Shown here: one piece after another, positions 11,264-30,020 of the stretch
How the letters are laid out: the number at the start of each line of letters is the position of its first letter
Numbering within the stretch: position 1 is the first letter of the stretch
DNA from: a virus
Length of the DNA: 30,477 nucleotides
Virus record (IMG/VR): IMGVR_UViG_3300044971_000090
Location: 1-30,477 of that record
Strand: one strand, 5' to 3'
Made by a program: the position numbers and the translations under genes
The notes under the pieces: model-generated
Seen by the model: the letters and a program-made list of their open reading frames with translations, nothing else
Told to the model about the DNA's origin: nothing
Databases searched by the model: none

Positions 11264-13714
11264 TTAGAGCGCACCCATTAGCAATAGCGTTAATTCATCC
11301 GCTACGCTGCCAGGTCCGTTGAGTACGATGTCTGTTAATCCTGAAATTGTTGTAATAGTAACGCCACTCGTTACTACTGTTGTTCCTAGTGTTGGTGCTG
11401 AGTATCCAGCGACAGTACCCCATGATGGTGTAGTTCCATCTGTTGTTAGGTACTTGCCTGAGTTGCCAGTCTGTGCTGGTAGTCCTGCATAGTACTCGCT
11501 AAAGGTAATATTAGTAGTACCAATAACAATAGGGTCAACTGTTGTTGAGTTAATGAATGACTTGTTAGTGTTTACTGTTCCACCAGAACAGAACAACTCA
11601 TCACCATTTTTCATTTCACCTGATGGGTTATTATCCGCATCGGTTGCACGAGTAAGAACCCAGTTGGTTGAACCACTGCCAACGGTAGTAAGTGTGTAGA
11701 TACCGTTCTCAGTTTGTGTTGTCTGATTCTTTACAAGTACACGAGCATTAAGAGCAGGACTTACTCCATCTGTGCTAAATGCTGCTTGCGTGCCAGAGTT
11801 GGTAAGAGTTGCCCCAACACCTGAACTTCCGTTGCTATAGGTAGCAGTTAGATTTGCTGTAGTCGCTGCAACAACTGACTCATGATAGTTAATCTGAGTA
11901 ACTACTGCATCAACATATTGCTTAGTAGCAAGACCAAGGTTTGTAGTTGGGTCTGCACTAGCCAGTCCACTACTAAGGGTTAGACCAGTAATTGTTGAGT
12001 ATGTAGTACCTGAGTCAATAGTTGTAGAGCCAAGAGTTGGTGCTGAGTAAACGCTAGTTGTAGCAATTTGAACCCAGGCGCTTCCTGACCACACATACAT
12101 ATTGCCAAGAGTAGAGTTCCAATAGATAGCACCAACAAGAAGTGGGTTGCCATCGTTATCTACTGATGGGGGAGATGACTTGCTACCAAGGTAGCGGTCA
12201 TCAAACTCATCGTAGGTTGTAGCAGCAGATGTAGCACTTGTAGCAGCAGATGCTGCAGATGTTGATGCTGCTGTTGCATATCCTTGTGATGCCGTTGCTG
12301 AGTTTTCTGCAGATGTTGCAGAAGTAGCAGCAGCAGTCTGACTGGTCAATGCTGATGCTGCACTTGTAGCAGCGGCAGTTTGGCTAGTTAAGGCAGAGGA
12401 TGCAGATGTAGCAGCGCTAGTTGCTGATGTTGCTGCTGCTGTTGCGGAGGCTGCTGCTGATGTAGCCGAAGTCGAAGCCGAAGTCGCAGATGTCGCTGCA
12501 GCACTTGCGCTAGTAGCAGATGAAATAGCAGATGCTTCCGAACTACCTGCGCTAGTTGCGGCACTTGTAGCACTTGTTGCTGCAGCAGATGCACTATTGG
12601 CAGATGCTGTTGCATATCCAGCAATAGTTGCCACAGAAGCAGCAGCGGTTGTAGCACTTGCTGCAGCACTGGTTGCACTTGTAGCAGCAGCAGTGGCACT
12701 AGCAGCAGCGCTTGTTGCTGATGTTGCTGCTGCCGTTGCGCTATTAGATGCGCTTGTAGCGGAAGTAGCAGCGGCTGTAGCAGAGGTTGCAGCAGAAGTT
12801 GCTGAGGTAGCCGCTGCACTTGCTGATGTAGCAGATGCACTGGCTGATGAAGCAGAGGCTGTTGCGCTATTTGCTGCGCTTGTTGCTGATGTTGCAGCAG
12901 CGGTAGCACTGGCTGCAGCAGAAGCAGCACTTGTGGCTGCAGCAGTTGCTGAGCCAAGAATTGCATCTACATAATCTTTAGGTGTAGCAGAAGATGAAAC
13001 CATGCCAGCAGATGACAAGCCAGTAAGAGTTCTGCCAGTCATGTCAATAGTTTTATTGGTAAGAGTCTGAACTGCGTTGGCGATTACTACTGTGCCAGTT
13101 GTATTAGGCAGAGTAATTGTATTGTCTTGTGTTGGGTCAACTACAGTCAGAGTTGTTTCAAAGGCATCAGGTGTTGCACCTTCAAAGACAATGCTTGCAT
13201 CTACGCCAGCACCAGAGATGCTTGGGTTAGTGATAACTGGAGAAGTTAAAGTTTTGTTTGTAAGTGTTTGTGTCTTAAGAGTACCAACAATAACACCATC
13301 GCCTGTTGCAATACCATGAACATGTGTCTGGTTAGCAGCGTTAAGGATTGTCTGGTCAATGTCATATCCACGAGCAGCAATGTGGTTCTCTGACTCACGG
13401 AACTCACGACCTGAAACACCATGTCTTACGACAGCACCAGCAGAGTGGGCTACAGCCTGTGTATTGTCAGAGCCACGGGTTACGCTAAGTGTTGTTCCGC
13501 TACCAGAAGTAACAGTAACAACTTCTTCTTTAGATGTATCAGGGTCAACAATAAGAGTGTATGGGTAATCAGTTGGGAAGCCAGAGATGGAGCCAACGAT
13601 AAACGAAGTGTTTGCTTGTCCCTGTGATTGTGCGGGAATTGATGAACCGAGCGCGGTTTCAACTGCTGTTGAGGAGTAGTACCGCGCTGGGGAGCCTGGG
13701 TCGCCTGCTGCCAT
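11264..13714 (-). CDS. Long tail fibre with Ala/Ser heptad shaft
   Basis: An 816-aa fibre. Residues 1-115 form a virion-proximal domain (TSKEEVVTVTSGSGTTLSVTRG) of a type shared with the adaptor-like protein upstream. Residues 140-245 hold repeated strands such as QTLTNKTLTSPVI and QTLTNKTIDMTG. Residues about 253-498 are a nearly pure Ala/Ser/Thr/Asn shaft in seven-residue units (AATSATS, AANSATA), as in lambda-type side fibres, likely a trimeric coiled coil. Then comes DEFDDRYLGSKSSPPSVDND and WNSTLGNMYVWSGSAWVQI, a junction motif widespread in phage fibres, and a beta-rich C-terminal part. It probably sets reach and host contact. No intramolecular chaperone domain is evident. Confidence 0.85.
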   Translation of the reverse strand: MAAGDPGSPARYYSSTAVETALGSSIPAQSQGQANTSFIVGSISGFPTDYPYTLIVDPDTSKEEVVTVTSGSGTTLSVTRGSDNTQAVAHSAGAVVRHGVSGREFRESENHIAARGYDIDQTILNAANQTHVHGIATGDGVIVGTLKTQTLTNKTLTSPVITNPSISGAGVDASIVFEGATPDAFETTLTVVDPTQDNTITLPNTTGTVVIANAVQTLTNKTIDMTGRTLTGLSSAGMVSSSATPKDYVDAILGSATAAATSAASAAASATAAATSATSAANSATASASSASASATSASAAATSATSAATSATAAATSATSASNSATAAATSATSAAASATAAATSATSAAASATTAAASVATIAGYATASANSASAAATSATSAATSAGSSEASAISSATSASAAATSATSASTSATSAAASATAAATSATSAATSASSALTSQTAAATSAASALTSQTAAATSATSAENSATASQGYATAASTSAASAATSATSAATTYDEFDDRYLGSKSSPPSVDNDGNPLLVGAIYWNSTLGNMYVWSGSAWVQIATTSVYSAPTLGSTTIDSGTTYSTITGLTLSSGLASADPTTNLGLATKQYVDAVVTQINYHESVVAATTANLTATYSNGSSGVGATLTNSGTQAAFSTDGVSPALNARVLVKNQTTQTENGIYTLTTVGSGSTNWVLTRATDADNNPSGEMKNGDELFCSGGTVNTNKSFINSTTVDPIVIGTTNITFSEYYAGLPAQTGNSGKYLTTDGTTPSWGTVAGYSAPTLGTTVVTSGVTITTISGLTDIVLNGPGSVADELTLLLMGAL
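12220..12955 (-). repeat. In-frame heptad repeat tract of the tail fibre
   Basis: About 735 bases encode some 35 imperfect seven-residue Ala/Ser/Thr units (AATSATA type), visible in the DNA as repeated GCAGCAGTTGCA-like words on the minus strand with varied codons. The codon variation argues against very recent expansion. Unequal recombination between units could still change shaft length. Confidence 0.8.
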
Positions 13715-13723
13715 TTGTCTGCC

Positions 13724-14617
13724 TTATCTCTGGTAGTGGGAACGAAGTGGATGTTGACGGCGCTGGTTGTCCGCTACTTCATTTAAACGCTGTTGGTAAA
13801 TGTTGTATAGGAATCTGGAAGCGTTCTGTCCAGAACCTACTGGTGTTACGCCATCAAAAATATCTGCTGCTGCAGATTGTGGACCAAGGCGTGATGGGTC
13901 TAAGAATGAAACCATACGAAAGGCTGCGCCATAGATGACAACATCTTCTGAGTATGATGGTAAACCTGTAGTTGCTGCGTAGTCATCGTTTTCATTGACT
14001 AACAATGTAGGGCGCTTCTTGTATGCCACATGCACTGTTTGTCCAGGAGTAATACCTGCGTAGATACTGATGCTACGAGCAGTCGCAAAAGCATCTGTGT
14101 CTGCTGTGTGGTCTAGTGTGTAGCCACGAACTGGGAACCATTCACGAGATGGTCCTACTGTTGAGTAAGACACACCAAGGACTGCTTGAAAATCTGCTGG
14201 CAACTGGTAAGTAGTGCGTGCTGCGATGAAGGGGAAGTCAGTTGTAGCAGTGGCAAATACCATTGGGTACATAGCATCAATAGTGTTATTGATTGCCTTT
14301 TTAATTTCTGCTCGTGGAAAAATTGGGCTGGCAATTACCTTTGCATTTTCTAGGTGTGGTGCAGCAGTTGTTCCACGCTGTCCGCGACCCCATGGGGTAA
14401 GCGTTAGTGTATTGGTTACATTGTCTGTACTGTTAACAAATACAATTTCATCGTCAATTTGTACAAAGCCACGACCCATACCTGTTGCATCTGCAATAGA
14501 TAGTGTGGTTGCAGTAGATGATGCAGGTGATGTTAGCCAACTGGTTGGCTCAACATTGTCTGTGTATCCATGAAGAACTGAATCAACACGCTCAATTAAA
14601 TCTAAATATGAACTCAT
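13724..14617 (-). CDS. Head-tail adaptor-like structural protein
   Basis: A 297-aa protein with an N-terminal helix (LDLIERVDSVLHGY), a beta domain (residues 30-95, with GFVQIDDEIVFV and WGRGQRGTTAAPH) and a helical C-terminal half (AEIKKAINNTIDAMYP, EDVVIYGAAFRMVSFLD). The helical half fits portal-binding adaptor proteins of short-tailed phages (role of T7 gp11), while the beta domain resembles that at the base of the tail fibre, suggesting the two contact each other. Position between head and fibre genes agrees. No clear family signature was recognised. Its ATG overlaps the upstream stop by ATGA. Confidence 0.55.
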   Translation of the reverse strand: MSSYLDLIERVDSVLHGYTDNVEPTSWLTSPASSTATTLSIADATGMGRGFVQIDDEIVFVNSTDNVTNTLTLTPWGRGQRGTTAAPHLENAKVIASPIFPRAEIKKAINNTIDAMYPMVFATATTDFPFIAARTTYQLPADFQAVLGVSYSTVGPSREWFPVRGYTLDHTADTDAFATARSISIYAGITPGQTVHVAYKKRPTLLVNENDDYAATTGLPSYSEDVVIYGAAFRMVSFLDPSRLGPQSAAADIFDGVTPVGSGQNASRFLYNIYQQRLNEVADNQRRQHPLRSHYQR

Positions 14618-14889: not shown

Positions 14890-15047
14890 TACTTAGCCTT
14901 TCTCTTTGCTGCTGCGTTATCTACAAGGTTTGGGTAAGGGCGACCAGCCTTCTTAGCAGCAGCCTTAGCCTTTGCCTTTTGTGCTGGTGTTAGTGGTGTT
15001 GACTTTTTCTTTGGATTCTTTGTATCCCAAAATGCTTTCTTCTTCAC
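14889..15047 (-). CDS. Tiny lysine-rich protein (GRPYPNLVDN type)
   Basis: A 52-aa very basic protein with a GTG start (15047) that overlaps the TGA of the upstream gene (GTGA). It begins MKKKAFWDTKNPKKK, has an AKAKAAAKKAG basic helix and a conserved-looking GRPYPNLVDN near the end. Similar short basic proteins occur in many environmental phage genomes next to capsid genes; their function is not established. Binding to packaged DNA is plausible from the charge only. Confidence 0.68.
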   Translation of the reverse strand: MKKKAFWDTKNPKKKSTPLTPAQKAKAKAAAKKAGRPYPNLVDNAAAKRKAK

Positions 15048-15310
15048 CACTTCACCTTGTCTGCCCAATACGCTGCACTCATCTTGCCTTTGGCAATATT
15101 CTTTGCATGGCGTGCTTTGAACGATGCTTGACGGGCAGAAGGTTGTCTGTCTCCTGTGACTCCCTGTTGCCCAAAACGAATTGTTTTTACCTGTGAACCT
15201 GACTTAGCCACAACAACATGAGACTTTGTTGGATGACTTGGTGTGCGCTTAGGCTTGTTAAAGCCTGACACACCAGCACGGGCTAGGCGTGGGTCCTTCT
15301 TGGCTGGCAT
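15044..15310 (-). CDS. Basic phage protein (KTIRFGQQGVTG type)
   Basis: An 88-aa basic protein: HPTKSHVVVAKSGSQVKTIR then FGQQGVTGDRQPSARQASF and a terminal KARHAKNIAKGKMSAAYWAD segment. The block from SHVVV to AYWADKVKW is a recurrent phage pattern that I recognise without a proven function. It might be a DNA-binding or head-completion protein. It is coupled to its neighbours (TAATG upstream, GTGA downstream). Confidence 0.7.
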   Translation of the reverse strand: MPAKKDPRLARAGVSGFNKPKRTPSHPTKSHVVVAKSGSQVKTIRFGQQGVTGDRQPSARQASFKARHAKNIAKGKMSAAYWADKVKW

Positions 15311-15471: not shown

Positions 15472-15642
15472 TTAGTCCTCGTCATCTTCCATCTCAAGGC
15501 GCTTGCCTGTTGGCACTTCGCCAATACGCTGGATAGGCTTGTTGTACTGAGCAACATTTGCTGCAGTTGGAGCAGAGTTAACCTTTCTACCACCAACACC
15601 ATATGGACTTACTGTTCCATAACATCCGCACTTAATGCACAT
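15472..15642 (-). CDS. Small Cys-containing protein
   Basis: A 56-aa protein starting MCIKCGCYGTVSPYGVGG, with Cys2, Cys5 and Cys7 clustered at the N-terminus and an acidic tail (RLEMEDDED). The ATG at 15642 follows AAAGGAG 5 nt upstream, better than the longer frame to 15681. It overlaps the end of the HslV-like peptidase gene by 11 nt. The Cys cluster may bind a metal; no second ligand pair is seen, so it could act as a dimer. No family is recognised. Confidence 0.62.
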   Translation of the reverse strand: MCIKCGCYGTVSPYGVGGRKVNSAPTAANVAQYNKPIQRIGEVPTGKRLEMEDDED

Positions 15643-16195
15643 TTCTACTCCTTTGAACTGTAACTTGTGTTTCTCCGCCAACAGTTGTGTTGTAGTTAGC
15701 AGAAATCTGTATTGCTTTTATAGCAACTTCTTCGGCATCTTTGATTGTCTTAGGACCAACCATTGCCACAGCGCCAAGCGCTAAGTTGCCACCACCACCG
15801 ATTGCATAGAACCCGCCATCATCGCGGGAGAAGGAGTAGTAATGGCTAATCTCATAAATGATTCCGTCAAAGGCAACGAGTGCATCAAAGCCTGCATCTC
15901 TATCAGCAGGGTCTGGGTTGTACCCATTGTCAATCATTGCCTTGCGAAGTGATGGCAATACCTTGCTCATCATAAACTTATCTGTATCCATAACCCTAGA
16001 TACTTTGGGTGGTACCCATAGGTACTGTGCGATATTGGCTGCTTGGTCATCACCTGCAAAGGCAATTACATATTCACCTTTGGTAATAACCTTTTCAATA
16101 CCTTTGGCTGTGTAGGGCTTATCGTTATAGGTAATCCTGGAATCACCAGCAATAACTGCTGCGTTCTTTAACTGGATACCAACGATGGCTGTCAT
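15632..16195 (-). CDS. Proteasome-beta/HslV-like Ntn peptidase
   Basis: A 187-aa protein with the fold signature of the HslV/20S proteasome beta family of N-terminal threonine hydrolases. MTAIVGIQLK places Thr2 as nucleophile after Met removal. AGDSR supplies the Asp17-equivalent, KGIEKV the catalytic Lys region, AFAGDDQAANI matches the FAGG loop, and FYAIGGGGNLALGAVAM matches the AIGSGGNYAL segment of HslV. Length fits HslV (about 175 aa). No HslU-type unfoldase or separate prohead protease is seen in the window. Its position four genes after scaffold and capsid suggests it degrades scaffold or matures the head, but degrading host proteins is equally possible. AAGGGG precedes the ATG. Confidence 0.85.
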   Translation of the reverse strand: MTAIVGIQLKNAAVIAGDSRITYNDKPYTAKGIEKVITKGEYVIAFAGDDQAANIAQYLWVPPKVSRVMDTDKFMMSKVLPSLRKAMIDNGYNPDPADRDAGFDALVAFDGIIYEISHYYSFSRDDGGFYAIGGGGNLALGAVAMVGPKTIKDAEEVAIKAIQISANYNTTVGGETQVTVQRSRNVH

Positions 16196-16204
16196 GTTTG
16201 CCCC

Positions 16205-16456
16205 TTAAGCGCCGTATGCTTTTCCTGTCTTGTTTGAAATATCTACTGCCTTTTGGACTGCCTTCATACTTGTACCTGCTGGCTGAATCCCTTGAGCGCG
16301 GGCATCTTTGTATGCTTTGAGTTCTGCATCCCACTTTGTAGTGGACATACTTACTTTAGAATTAGCATCTCCTACACCCATTTCAAGTGTAGAAATTTTG
16401 CAGCCAAAACAATTCTCAACATACTCAGGATGTATAGTTCGTCTATGTAAACTCAT
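16205..16456 (-). CDS. Small phage protein with CFGCK motif
   Basis: An 83-aa protein: MSLHRRTIHPEYVENCFGCK at the start (Cys16, Cys19, possibly with His9), then a WDAELKAYKDARAQGIQPAG helix and a C-terminal KAVQKAVDISNKTGKAYGA helix. The HPEYVxxCFGCK and ARxQGIQPAGT words recur in phage proteins near capsid genes; their role is unknown. The ATG overlaps the preceding TGA (ATGA). A lone zinc-binding half-site is possible. Confidence 0.68.
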   Translation of the reverse strand: MSLHRRTIHPEYVENCFGCKISTLEMGVGDANSKVSMSTTKWDAELKAYKDARAQGIQPAGTSMKAVQKAVDISNKTGKAYGA

Positions 16457-16713
16457 GCTGGTGTTATGTACTCCCCGTAGCCTTGAGCAGTCAAGGCATC
16501 TGCTGTCTCTTGCGTGATTACAGTCTTAGTGCCACCAAGGTAAAACTCAGTAGCAGCATCAACATCTACCTGTGCTGGGTAACGATATGAGGAATAGATA
16601 CCGTTAACTCTTAAGACAGAAACTCCTTTAATAATTTTATAGCGTGAGAACAATGGACCATCACTCATTGGAGTTTCTTCAACGGTGGGTGTAGTAAAAA
16701 TGTACTGTGTCAT
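16453..16713 (-). CDS. Small head-region protein, unknown
   Basis: An 86-aa protein with YIFTTPTVEETPMSDGPLF, a strand-rich centre (FSRYKIIKGVSVLRVNGIY) and VDAATEFYLGGTKTVIT followed by a short helix. First gene after the major capsid protein, so a decoration or head-completion role is possible by position only. AGGACAAT precedes its ATG. No family is recognised. Confidence 0.62.
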   Translation of the reverse strand: MTQYIFTTPTVEETPMSDGPLFSRYKIIKGVSVLRVNGIYSSYRYPAQVDVDAATEFYLGGTKTVITQETADALTAQGYGEYITPA

Positions 16714-16771: not shown

Positions 16772-17944
16772 TTAGAGAGCAGCGATTGATGAACCTGATT
16801 CGATGCGGTATAGAGCAGCCTCGCGGTAGCGTGACCATCCGATTACACCGTACCAACCGATTGGACGGAAGCGCATCAACTTATCGGTGATTGGTCCGAT
16901 AACAACTGATGGCTCTTGTGCAACAGCCTCAGCCAATGCCTGCTTTCCAGCAAGGATTGTGTCGAATACGCGAGTTACAGGTGTTACAGTTACAACAGTT
17001 GTTGCTGTAACTGCTGCTGTGTTAGCAATAGATACAGTAAATGTTGTTGTTGAACCTGCTGTTGTGATAGCAGTAATCAAGGCACCAGAAGCGATACCTG
17101 TTCCTGCAACCTTGTCGCCGACCTCTGCACGAGATGCGATGACTGATGTTGAGGCAACACCGAATGTGAAGCCTGCTGATGTGCCAGCAACAGTTACGGC
17201 TGTTGTAGCCAATGCTGTCTGGTCTGCACCTGACTTGCTTGAGTACATGCGTGGGTTCTCAATGAAGAAAGCACCTTCGTATGTACCGATTGAGCCTGCG
17301 AATAGGTTGCCCAATGAAGCATCTGTGTGCTGGTGTGTGTCACGCCAGCCGATGTTTCCTGTCTCAGCACGAAGGTCGTGTGAAACTTCTGGGTGGATAC
17401 CTGTCCAGTATAGGCTTCCTGAGCGAGGCACAGCCTTGTTTGTACGCAACTTAGCAACTGCCTTACGAAGGTTAGCAGATGTGATTGTCATACCTGCTGT
17501 GATTGTTGCTGTTGATGTTGCTGTACCTGAATAGATAACATTCACACCGTTGACAAGCGCTTGCTGCGCGATGTCATCGAGTGAGTCAGCCATGTTGTAA
17601 GCGATGATGTCAGCGATTGCTGGGTCAACATCTGATAGTGAGAGCAGTTCCAACTTGCGTGTTGCAAGTGCTGCGTTACCCTGTTCGTTTAGAGTAACTG
17701 AAACTGTTGAGACATCTGGTAGTGCTACTGCATCTACATCGGTTGTCTCTGATAGAGCAGCAGTTGCTGCAGCCAAGTCATTGTAAAGTGAGAATACAAC
17801 GCTTGAACCTGGCATCGCCTGCTGTACTGGGCGCTTGTCCGCTACTGCACGAATCATCGGCGTATCGCGGAGGGCAAATTCTACATAACGGTCATAAGCG
17901 GTCTTTACAAGACCTGCCATAGACGAGGTATCTGTATATGCCAT
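16772..17944 (-). CDS. Major capsid protein
   Basis: A 390-aa protein read as the HK97-fold major capsid protein. It follows the scaffold-like gene, has the strongest ribosome site of the region (AGGAGGTG), and its sequence suits N4-gp56-type capsids: an N-terminal arm (SSMAGLVKTAYDRYVEFAL), a long helix region (DIIAYNMADSLDDIAQQAL), SLYWTGIHPEVSHDLR, and the C-terminal RPIGWYGVIGWSRYREAALY. Residues about 240-322 differ: Ala/Thr/Val-rich and strand-like (EVGDKVAGTGIASGALITAI), interrupting the P-domain-like part, and look like an inserted beta domain exposed on the shell. The call rests on position and general pattern, so the exact family is less sure than the role. Confidence 0.82.
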   Translation of the reverse strand: MAYTDTSSMAGLVKTAYDRYVEFALRDTPMIRAVADKRPVQQAMPGSSVVFSLYNDLAAATAALSETTDVDAVALPDVSTVSVTLNEQGNAALATRKLELLSLSDVDPAIADIIAYNMADSLDDIAQQALVNGVNVIYSGTATSTATITAGMTITSANLRKAVAKLRTNKAVPRSGSLYWTGIHPEVSHDLRAETGNIGWRDTHQHTDASLGNLFAGSIGTYEGAFFIENPRMYSSKSGADQTALATTAVTVAGTSAGFTFGVASTSVIASRAEVGDKVAGTGIASGALITAITTAGSTTTFTVSIANTAAVTATTVVTVTPVTRVFDTILAGKQALAEAVAQEPSVVIGPITDKLMRFRPIGWYGVIGWSRYREAALYRIESGSSIAAL

Positions 17945-17985: not shown

Positions 17986-18438
17986 TTACAAACCAAGGAG
18001 TGCATCTAGTTCATCGCGTGACTTTGCCTGCAAGACTCGCGACATGGAATCTGTGTCAAGGTTTGGAGCCTGACCAGTAGCGACCATGTTGTTAATTCTT
18101 GCTTGAGCAGTCACATCTTGAGACTGTTGTGTTGGCTGAGATTCAGCCTGGGTTACTGCACCAAATACATCGCCATATTCGTTAATCCAGTTATTGATTG
18201 CTTCTTCCGAAGTATCAATGTCTGCTGGTACGAACGCTGCAATCTTTGGATTTAAACCCTTTGCTTGTAGCACATCCTTGACAGTACGCTGACGGGTCTG
18301 TGTCTTAAGACCTAACAACTCCTGTTCTAGTTCTTTTGCACGCTTTTCAAGCGCACGGTTTACTTGGCGGAGTTGCTTGATGCCACCGTCTTGGGTGGTT
18401 TCATCATCTTCGTCATCGTATTCATAGTTGGTAGCCAT
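17986..18438 (-). CDS. Scaffolding-like protein
   Basis: A 150-aa acidic protein with an Asp/Glu-rich start (YEYDDEDDETTQDGG), a coiled coil (residues 20-47, RQVNRALEKRAKELEQELLG), a middle helical pair around AAFVPADIDTSEEAIN, a Gln-rich linker and a C-terminal helix (DSMSRVLQAKSRDELDALLG). Charge, coiled coil and position directly before the capsid gene are characteristic of phage scaffolds, which guide shell assembly through the C-terminal helix. It could be a substrate of the HslV-like peptidase. Confidence 0.75.
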   Translation of the reverse strand: MATNYEYDDEDDETTQDGGIKQLRQVNRALEKRAKELEQELLGLKTQTRQRTVKDVLQAKGLNPKIAAFVPADIDTSEEAINNWINEYGDVFGAVTQAESQPTQQSQDVTAQARINNMVATGQAPNLDTDSMSRVLQAKSRDELDALLGL

Positions 18439-27873: not shown

Positions 27874-27901
27874 GATTACCCCAATGCTAAATTAGCGTTT
27901 G

Positions 27902-27976
27902 AAAAATTGGTGAGCCTTTTAATGTCAAATGCTCAGGACTGTTTGATTTGTTAATCGCGGTTATCAACCCATTAAC
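27902..27976 (-). promoter_or_regulatory. Intergenic hairpins between portal and cargo genes
   Basis: The 131-base gap holds two structures. Bases 27950-27976 form a nested hairpin: GTTAAT/ATTAAC outside and GGTT/AACC inside. On the minus strand, TGAGC/GCTCA (27931-27935 with 27911-27915) is followed by CCAATTTTTC, a weak terminator-like element; its loop also contains TTGACA (perfect -35 hexamer, 27922-27927), but no good -10 lies 16-18 bases on. It may reduce or restart transcription before the cargo genes. Confidence 0.35.
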
Positions 27977-28004
27977 TCTGCGTTTTCGGCAGCCGACTAT
28001 TTAA

Positions 28005-28178
28005 TTACTTGTTCTTTGAACCGCGTGTGCCAGATGGCTGTGCAGTCTGATAGACCTTTCCTCCCTTAGAGGATGCCTTCTTCGCTGTCATTGGCTTCTG
28101 CATATTAGGCTTTCCTGCTGAACCCTGGTTAGCAGGCTTCTTGCTGTAGCCCTTCTTGAGTGCTGATGCTTTCTTCAT
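28005..28178 (-). CDS. Tiny lysine-rich protein after portal
   Basis: A 57-aa very basic protein (MKKASALKKGYSKKPANQG, then KPMTAKKASSKGGKVYQ and a RGSKNK end), with about 15 lysines and no acidic residues. The ATG at 28178 has one of the best ribosome sites of the window (AAGGAGGTG). Disordered and DNA-condensing character is inferred from composition. It resembles in style the small basic proteins at 14889-15468 but shows no clear sequence match to them. Confidence 0.62.
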   Translation of the reverse strand: MKKASALKKGYSKKPANQGSAGKPNMQKPMTAKKASSKGGKVYQTAQPSGTRGSKNK

Positions 28179-28190
28179 TTATTCACCTCC

Positions 28191-30020
28191 TTACACTGGT
28201 ACTCGTCTGATGAGGGATGCCTGCAAATTAGGTTCGCCTCGTGCTGTTAAACTTGCTAGTAAGGATTGAACATCTGGTCTGCCACCTGGAGCAATCTGTC
28301 CTGGTGCCACACCTGTCATACGACCTGTTGGGCTTAGTCCTTCTGGAAGTTGCCCCTCACCTGGAGGGACCGCGCCTGCTTGCCCAAGTATCTCAGGACT
28401 TACACCATCAGGGGTCATCGCACCAGGTGGGGGATTCTGTGGTTTAAACGCATCAGAAACCGCAACCTCGATAGAGGTTCCCTTCTGGCGTGCATTGATA
28501 ACGGATGAAAGTTTGTAAAGAATGTCAGATGGGTCTTGACCTTGAGATGCAAGGGCTGGAATAGCCTGAGCATAAGAAGCAATAGCCTGTTTCATGGCAT
28601 CGCGTAGTTCTTCTGTGTCAACCTTTTCTTCTTCTTGTGTTGCATTGAAGGAGAATGGCATTTGACGGCGAAGGAAGTCGCGTGAAATCAACTTGTCACC
28701 GCGTGCCTGTAGTCCAAAGACCAAAGCGCGGTTAGGGTCAAGTCCTGCCATCAAGCCATACTGAACATCAACAGTGTAATCACCGTCAATATCGCGTATT
28801 GGCTTGTACTTAATGTTGTAAGGAGTACCGTTGCGTGTACCGCGTAGGTTCTTCTCTACATTACCAAAAATCTTTTCATCAACTTTGAGTGCAAGGCTGA
28901 TAAGTTCTACAAAAGCACGGGCAAACATTGCATGTGCTGTCTTAATCTGTGTGTCAAAGCCACCCATAAGTGCCTGAACACCACGACCTGTGATGATTGA
29001 AGCATCAATGTTACCTGTACGAGACTCTGGATAGCGTGAACCTAGGCGTAGTTCGCCTTCAAGTACCTGTTGCTGTGCGAATGTTCCACCAGGAATCTCA
29101 ATAGATACACGGCGCACATCTTGTGGGCGTTCAGTTTGGATGACAGCATCTGGACCAAGTGCTAAATCGCTAACATCGCGTGGCACAACGATAGGTGCCT
29201 GTACTGCCTTAGTTGCAGCCTCAAGAGAAAGCAACGCATAGCGTGCTTTTGCTACCTGAATTGCTAGAACATCATCAAATTGTCCGCGTGATTGTGAATC
29301 AAGTGATGGTCGCTGTACAACACGGACCATAACTTCGCCAAGAGCGTTGGCTGCTCTATCTATAACAAGATTGTTGCGTGATGGAATGAACAAAACATCT
29401 TGGTCTTTGTCGTGGTAACGAACAATCTCAAGTACAGAGGTTGTTGTGTTCTCATCTTTGTCAAAAATAATGTGGGCATACTCTGGGTATGCAGCCATTA
29501 ACTCTGATACTGGCTTCTCAATGCGTTGGTAGAAGTACTGAACGCGACCAAAGCGGTCAATCATTGGGTATGAACCGTATGAATCTAAGAAACGGATGCG
29601 TGGCATCTGTGCTTCTAGGTCATACTCTACCTGTGCAGGTACGAATCCGTAGGTTACATAACGGTCTGCCGCTGTAAACATTTGAGTTTGAATATCAGAG
29701 AAGTCAACAATGCCGTTGACAATCTCCTCGCGCTTATCTGCCTTCTTGCGTTCCTTTTCAGAAACCATAGTAGGTGAGTTGCAGTTAAACGCAGGCATAG
29801 GAGCAATGACTTCTGATAAGTCACGCGCTGAAATGTCCACCATGTTTGCCACGATTGGGTTCTCGAAAGGACCATCTGGGAATAAATCAGGGTACACATC
29901 GCGCATGCGACCTTTACGAACTAGGAGGACATCTTCCATGCGACTATCGCGCTCAGCAAATGCTTGTTTGATAATGAGGAAGTTATTCTTAATTTCATCT
30001 ACAGTTAGAATCGCACCCAC
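28191..30020 (-). CDS. Portal protein
   Basis: A 609-aa portal, the dodecameric ring at the packaging vertex. Order directly after the terminase, the length, and segments such as FENPIVANMVDISARDLSEV near residue 52, DRYVTYGFVPAQVEYD, the RIRFLDSYGSYPMIDRFGRV stretch and the long C-terminal helical/Gly-Pro-rich tail (residues about 530-600, with MTPDGVSPEILGQAGAVPPG) support this. The start is unusual: the frame opens with GTG at 30020, but the GGAGGTGG that should serve as ribosome site includes that GTG. An AUU eight bases after the GGAGG is a possible alternative start at 30011, and the next ATG is about 26 codons further in. Confidence 0.85.
   Translation of the reverse strand: MGAILTVDEIKNNFLIIKQAFAERDSRMEDVLLVRKGRMRDVYPDLFPDGPFENPIVANMVDISARDLSEVIAPMPAFNCNSPTMVSEKERKKADKREEIVNGIVDFSDIQTQMFTAADRYVTYGFVPAQVEYDLEAQMPRIRFLDSYGSYPMIDRFGRVQYFYQRIEKPVSELMAAYPEYAHIIFDKDENTTTSVLEIVRYHDKDQDVLFIPSRNNLVIDRAANALGEVMVRVVQRPSLDSQSRGQFDDVLAIQVAKARYALLSLEAATKAVQAPIVVPRDVSDLALGPDAVIQTERPQDVRRVSIEIPGGTFAQQQVLEGELRLGSRYPESRTGNIDASIITGRGVQALMGGFDTQIKTAHAMFARAFVELISLALKVDEKIFGNVEKNLRGTRNGTPYNIKYKPIRDIDGDYTVDVQYGLMAGLDPNRALVFGLQARGDKLISRDFLRRQMPFSFNATQEEEKVDTEELRDAMKQAIASYAQAIPALASQGQDPSDILYKLSSVINARQKGTSIEVAVSDAFKPQNPPPGAMTPDGVSPEILGQAGAVPPGEGQLPEGLSPTGRMTGVAPGQIAPGGRPDVQSLLASLTARGEPNLQASLIRRVPV

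Follow-up and report, generated by a model that had tools for sequence, protein, structure and literature searches.

Is a proteasome-like peptidase encoded among the head genes of a phage a new type of prohead protease? This question is raised by NTN, a proteasome-like Ntn hydrolase of 187 aa (15632-16195, minus strand) found in IMG/VR virus record IMGVR_UViG_3300044971_000090, of which we analyzed a stretch of 30,477 nucleotides (hereafter, the window). The NTN ORF starts with ATG, and its coordinates and strand are exactly those given in a first-pass annotation made from the sequence alone.

That annotation had described the product as an HslV/proteasome-like peptidase, and the proteasome-like half of the description was borne out. 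NTN matches PHROG 1040 (“peptidase HslV family”) over residues 1-185 at 2.5e-20, and it passes the Pfam Proteasome profile (PF00227) with 24.4 bits against a cut-off of 22.4. The HslV half was not: the NCBIfam HslV equivalog yields 27 bits against a cut-off of 157.75, the 20S equivalog cut-off is likewise unreached, and NTN is therefore named proteasome-like rather than HslV. Structure prediction of the single chain, which had been proposed as a check, returned the Ntn fold of the PF00227 superfamily. The AlphaFold model, computed with 23 sequences from the window and viral contigs as input, has a pLDDT of 89.6, a pTM of 0.87 and four flanking helices, and a Foldseek search with it gave BPH of Thiobacillus as the best solved match (TM 0.75), followed by HslV and 20S beta. 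Judged by these profiles and the predicted structure, the similarity to the proteasome superfamily is well above chance. Foldseek also found the fold to be common to many phage proteins, in line with Fuchs et al. 2021 (PMC8665760), while searches of plasmids and bacterial genomes returned distant homologs and nothing closer. NTN is a new member of an already known phage family.

The catalytic residues that had been pointed out in NTN are all present, namely Thr2, Asp18 (in the AGD motif), Lys35 and the segment AIGGGGN at residues 131-137. Among 25 representatives of the NTN family, Thr2 (N-terminal after putative removal of Met), Asp18 and Lys35, the latter two equivalent to Asp17 and Lys33, are invariant (25/25), and Gly48 is kept in 22. 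The median dN/dS is 0.08 in the window’s capsid-slot clade and 0.14 in the E7-type portal-slot clade. Because the triad is invariant and a dN/dS of about 0.08 indicates purifying selection, NTN is likely an active enzyme. One position may count against reading NTN as an active peptidase: the equivalent of HslV Ser125 is Gly in the NTN of the window, and Ser, Thr, Ala or Cys in other representatives. This non-canonical residue would suit a specific processing enzyme or ligase that acts on one phage protein rather than a general peptidase, for which connectase, a member of the same superfamily, offers a precedent (PMC8665760). We consider this very unlikely. Connectase carries an S3/S4 insertion and is missing the first pair of helices (PMC8665760), whereas the compact four-helix fold of NTN matches BPH and HslV, and the Pfam connectase profile scores NTN at only E 0.1, below its cut-off.

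As the first-pass annotation had recognized, the gene lies within the head module, between the genes for the major capsid protein (N4-gp56 family by profile matches; 16772-17944) and an SU10-type head-tail adaptor (13724-14617); these and all other window genes with coordinates given here are on the minus strand, except where no strand is stated. The gene run around NTN comprises the portal protein (28191-30020; PHROG 104), internal proteins, a probable scaffold (17986-18438; DUF4355 and scaffold families of PHROG match it weakly), the capsid protein, small genes and the adaptor. The small genes include an 86-aa gene after the capsid gene (16453-16713; PHROG 8987), an 83-aa gene just upstream of NTN (c83; 16205-16456) and a small gene with a CxxCGC motif (w69; 15472-15642), the last two being the left and right borders of a slot in which genes are exchanged. 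Since only 9 nt separate the c83 stop from the NTN start, and the NTN stop and the w69 ATG overlap within 11 nt shared by the two genes, NTN is firmly built into the late run of structural genes; its GC and GC3 agree with those of the neighboring genes. An 88-aa basic protein (15044-15310, no strand stated) is the best conserved between the window and Planktophila phage E7, with 90% identity, where the capsid reaches 70% and the scaffold 36%.

The window’s capsid protein is about 53-65% identical to those of Streptomyces Beephvirinae and of OX376640 and OX376641, which by name are the Planktophila phages LanE43AprE7 (E7) and LanE43AprF5 (F5), isolated on ‘Ca. Nanopelagicales’ (PMC10202952). 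Of 31 related records, 26 have WhiB, which is characteristic of actinophages. The window’s phage belongs to a group of WhiB-type actinophages, with E7 and F5 as cultured members, and from these relatives we infer freshwater-type Actinobacteria as the probable host of the window’s phage.

Comparison with known systems places NTN more precisely. The PHROG 1040 “HslV” proteins of E7, F5 and Actinomycetia phage DSL-LC01 share its family, catalytic residues and size at 35-38% identity. The head-gene order of E7 and F5 is that of the window, but they carry the NTN gene directly after the portal gene. BPH (Thiobacillus denitrificans, 5ovs; Cupriavidus, 5ovu) is the best structural match (TM 0.71-0.76) and, like NTN, has no dedicated unfoldase (for BPH, PMC8665760); it differs in that identity is about 20% and in that NTN is phage-encoded. 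HslV (ClpQ) has the Thr/Asp/Lys triad and the core fold in common with NTN (TM 0.61-0.67), whereas NTN falls far under the NCBIfam cut-off, has no encoded HslU partner and has the catalytic Ser replaced. AAH and PPH are group I proteasome homologs known in phages, with no AAA+ partner (PMC8665760). PPH has about 140 aa and lacks helix H2 (PMC8665760), unlike NTN, whose 187 aa, helix H2 and four modeled helices put it outside the PPH definition, and AAH was not found in Actinobacteria-specific phages by Fuchs, Alva and Lupas 2021 (PMC8665760). Of the host unfoldases with which NTN might pair, HslU appears an unlikely partner because HslV is unmarked for Actinobacteria in Table 1 of Fuchs et al. 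2021 (PMC8665760); another host unfoldase may still take part. NTN would likely work in the manner of BPH, needing no unfoldase, or else with the help of a host chaperone.

The gene context of NTN in related phages revealed an alternative occupant of its slot, SMALL, a protein of 76-97 aa with no relation to NTN. In window-type phages, NTN sits after the capsid, 86-aa and 83-aa genes. When 80 capsid-centered loci were fetched irrespective of NTN presence, this capsid slot held NTN in 20 and SMALL, here 81-97 aa long, in 54, with no locus holding both, none empty, and 6 ending before the slot. The same two families alternate at a second position, between the portal gene and a 150-aa gene, where NTN occurs in about 48 loci, with NTN identities as low as 50%, and SMALL in 38. 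E7/F5-type phages have NTN there and others SMALL; in the window this position (27874-28190) contains just a 57-aa Lys-rich ORF. Tallied by record, many of the records being fragments, SMALL was absent from 26 NTN-positive single-genome records and present in 8/8 NTN-negative ingroup records, and NTN was absent from 16 SMALL-type records; there were also near-full-length relatives altogether devoid of NTN. A Fisher test on these tallies was discarded because the rows are related by descent. Two IMG/VR records with both genes, G004 (76.6 kb) and G043 (79.4 kb), are not counter-examples, as each has two distinct capsids and two WhiB genes; they look like two related phage genomes joined, with one gene set per half.

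A minimum of five switches in the capsid slot follows from the best capsid tree (91 rows), and well-supported branches force three of them. The exchange can be precise to a single gene: between a SMALL locus (L126) and an NTN locus (L128), the capsid is 98%, the scaffold 96% and w69 100% identical, and another pair with a swapped slot (L089 and L001) has 93% capsid and 95% scaffold identity. That NTN was captured independently into each slot is unsupported, since both NTN clades group together (88/77 support, not decisive); one ancestral NTN gene that moved between slots is as likely as two captures. An exchange at one slot is no proof of shared function, since recombination within conserved flanks can bring it about, and homologous flanks do explain the swapping of alleles within one slot. 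They do not account for the alternation of NTN and SMALL at the second slot, which is non-homologous, or for the lack of empty intact slots. Functional equivalence of NTN and SMALL would be the simplest reading. Streptomyces phage Zeigle, which has the same capsid family, carries neither NTN nor SMALL by profile search, and therefore neither is universally needed.

These exchanges bear directly on a role in head morphogenesis, in which NTN would clear scaffold or trim capsid or internal proteins in the prohead, and SMALL would do the same job differently, e.g., by recruiting a host protease. Such a role fits the finding that every intact ingroup slot holds exactly one of the two genes. It also fits the position of both slots within the head module, one of them right after the portal gene, the usual place of a maturation protease, and this position counts against a role outside the head. 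The first-pass annotation had noted that the window has neither an HslU-like unfoldase nor a classical prohead protease, and for the families searched this stands: Peptidase_S78 and CLP_protease (S14) were found neither in the 30.5-kb window nor in ingroup relatives, nor was the AAA_2 unfoldase domain (23 records), with positive controls working in each case, and a Peptidase_S77 search of the window and ingroup records, in which no positive control responded, gave no match. Many podoviruses, such as T7 and P22, mature without a prohead protease, and the missing protease is for this reason not telling.

Like NTN, the serine prohead proteases (S14, S49, S77 and S78) are encoded within the head module, but they have another fold and nucleophile, and NTN, unlike them, can be dispensed with while scaffold and capsid hardly change. 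The survey of related phages that had been proposed found no S78 or S14 protease in the ingroup, and it found near-identical scaffold and capsid also without NTN. A scaffold and capsid used with NTN in one phage serve a sister phage without it, with hardly any change in sequence. NTN does not always accompany the same scaffold and capsid, and because sister phages carry SMALL in its place with scaffold and capsid 93-98% identical, NTN is probably not a head-maturation protease. SMALL could stand in for NTN in a head role, but the positional argument alone is insufficient for such a role. Zeigle, with neither gene, also speaks against a head role, as do more distant homologs outside head modules: in DSL-LC01 and contigs L078, L080 and L082 they lie among small genes upstream of the terminase gene, in other phages amid PhoH, ribonucleotide reductase and thymidylate genes, and one phage with a homolog, D’Alembert, is annotated with a separate head maturation protease. 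Moreover, a SMALL homolog is found in the probable lysis region of an unrelated phage (L285:7185-7406 and L286:9995-10216), with a probable endolysin/holin pair on one side and a phosphoesterase-like gene on the other (gene identities judged by sequence only). In the open-access literature we found no paper that treats a proteasome homolog as a phage head protease. Overall, the head-maturation or scaffold-clearing role first proposed for NTN seems unlikely.

SMALL is predicted to be helical and has a basic N-terminus and an acidic tail; it has no match in PHROG or Pfam, and its structure model has three helices at low-to-moderate confidence. In L126, an ORF for an acidic peptide of about 29 aa, MSNPIIPEPMWGLPSPTITDEDIYEDEDE, follows SMALL (which ends at 12009) and precedes the w69 gene (12094), and sister loci of L126 have sequence similar to it. 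A host-directed or counter-defence function, in which NTN would degrade a particular host protein late in infection and SMALL would neutralize the same target by binding, agrees with the reciprocal and repeated exchange, and also with other phages having NTN homologs and SMALL in their accessory regions. But PADLOC gave no defence match, and early counter-defence genes are not usually placed within a structural operon; we regard this function as improbable.

Our best reading, held with moderate confidence, is that NTN is an active, late proteasome-like peptidase that is interchangeable with SMALL and not dedicated to capsid cleavage. It is based on the fold prediction, the invariant triad, purifying selection, the operon position and the reciprocal exchange at two slots. 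NTN would be made late in infection on the structural transcript, as its gene position suggests. Met1 would probably be cut off by methionine aminopeptidase, exposing Thr2 as the nucleophile; Asp18 and Lys35 would be the other members of the triad, and Gly48 would provide the oxyanion hole. The protein probably self-assembles and would work as a ring like BPH, without a dedicated unfoldase, and its activity is predicted to be that of a peptidase. NTN and SMALL are probably alternative answers to one late-infection need, most likely that of dealing with unwanted host or phage polypeptides. A more specific version, which we consider quite unlikely, is that this actinophage group needs one of two non-homologous late factors, either the NTN peptidase or SMALL as a small helical adaptor through which a host protease or chaperone would be brought to the substrate of NTN. 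If true, the virus would in some cases encode a protease and in others commandeer one, and this at two separate genome positions.

Proteasome homologs have for years been recognized in phages, but with neither a function nor a telling gene context (PMC8665760). The context of NTN is informative, being a strict either/or with one small gene at two positions; this reciprocal exchange, seemingly unreported, is the part that appears new. A proteasome-like gene in a head operon tempts one to see a new type of prohead protease, and the exchange corrects that view. The phage group has cultured members on a cultured host (PMC10202952), and it offers natural pairs of phages that are nearly identical in capsid and scaffold but differ in whether they have NTN, together with a defined counterpart in SMALL.
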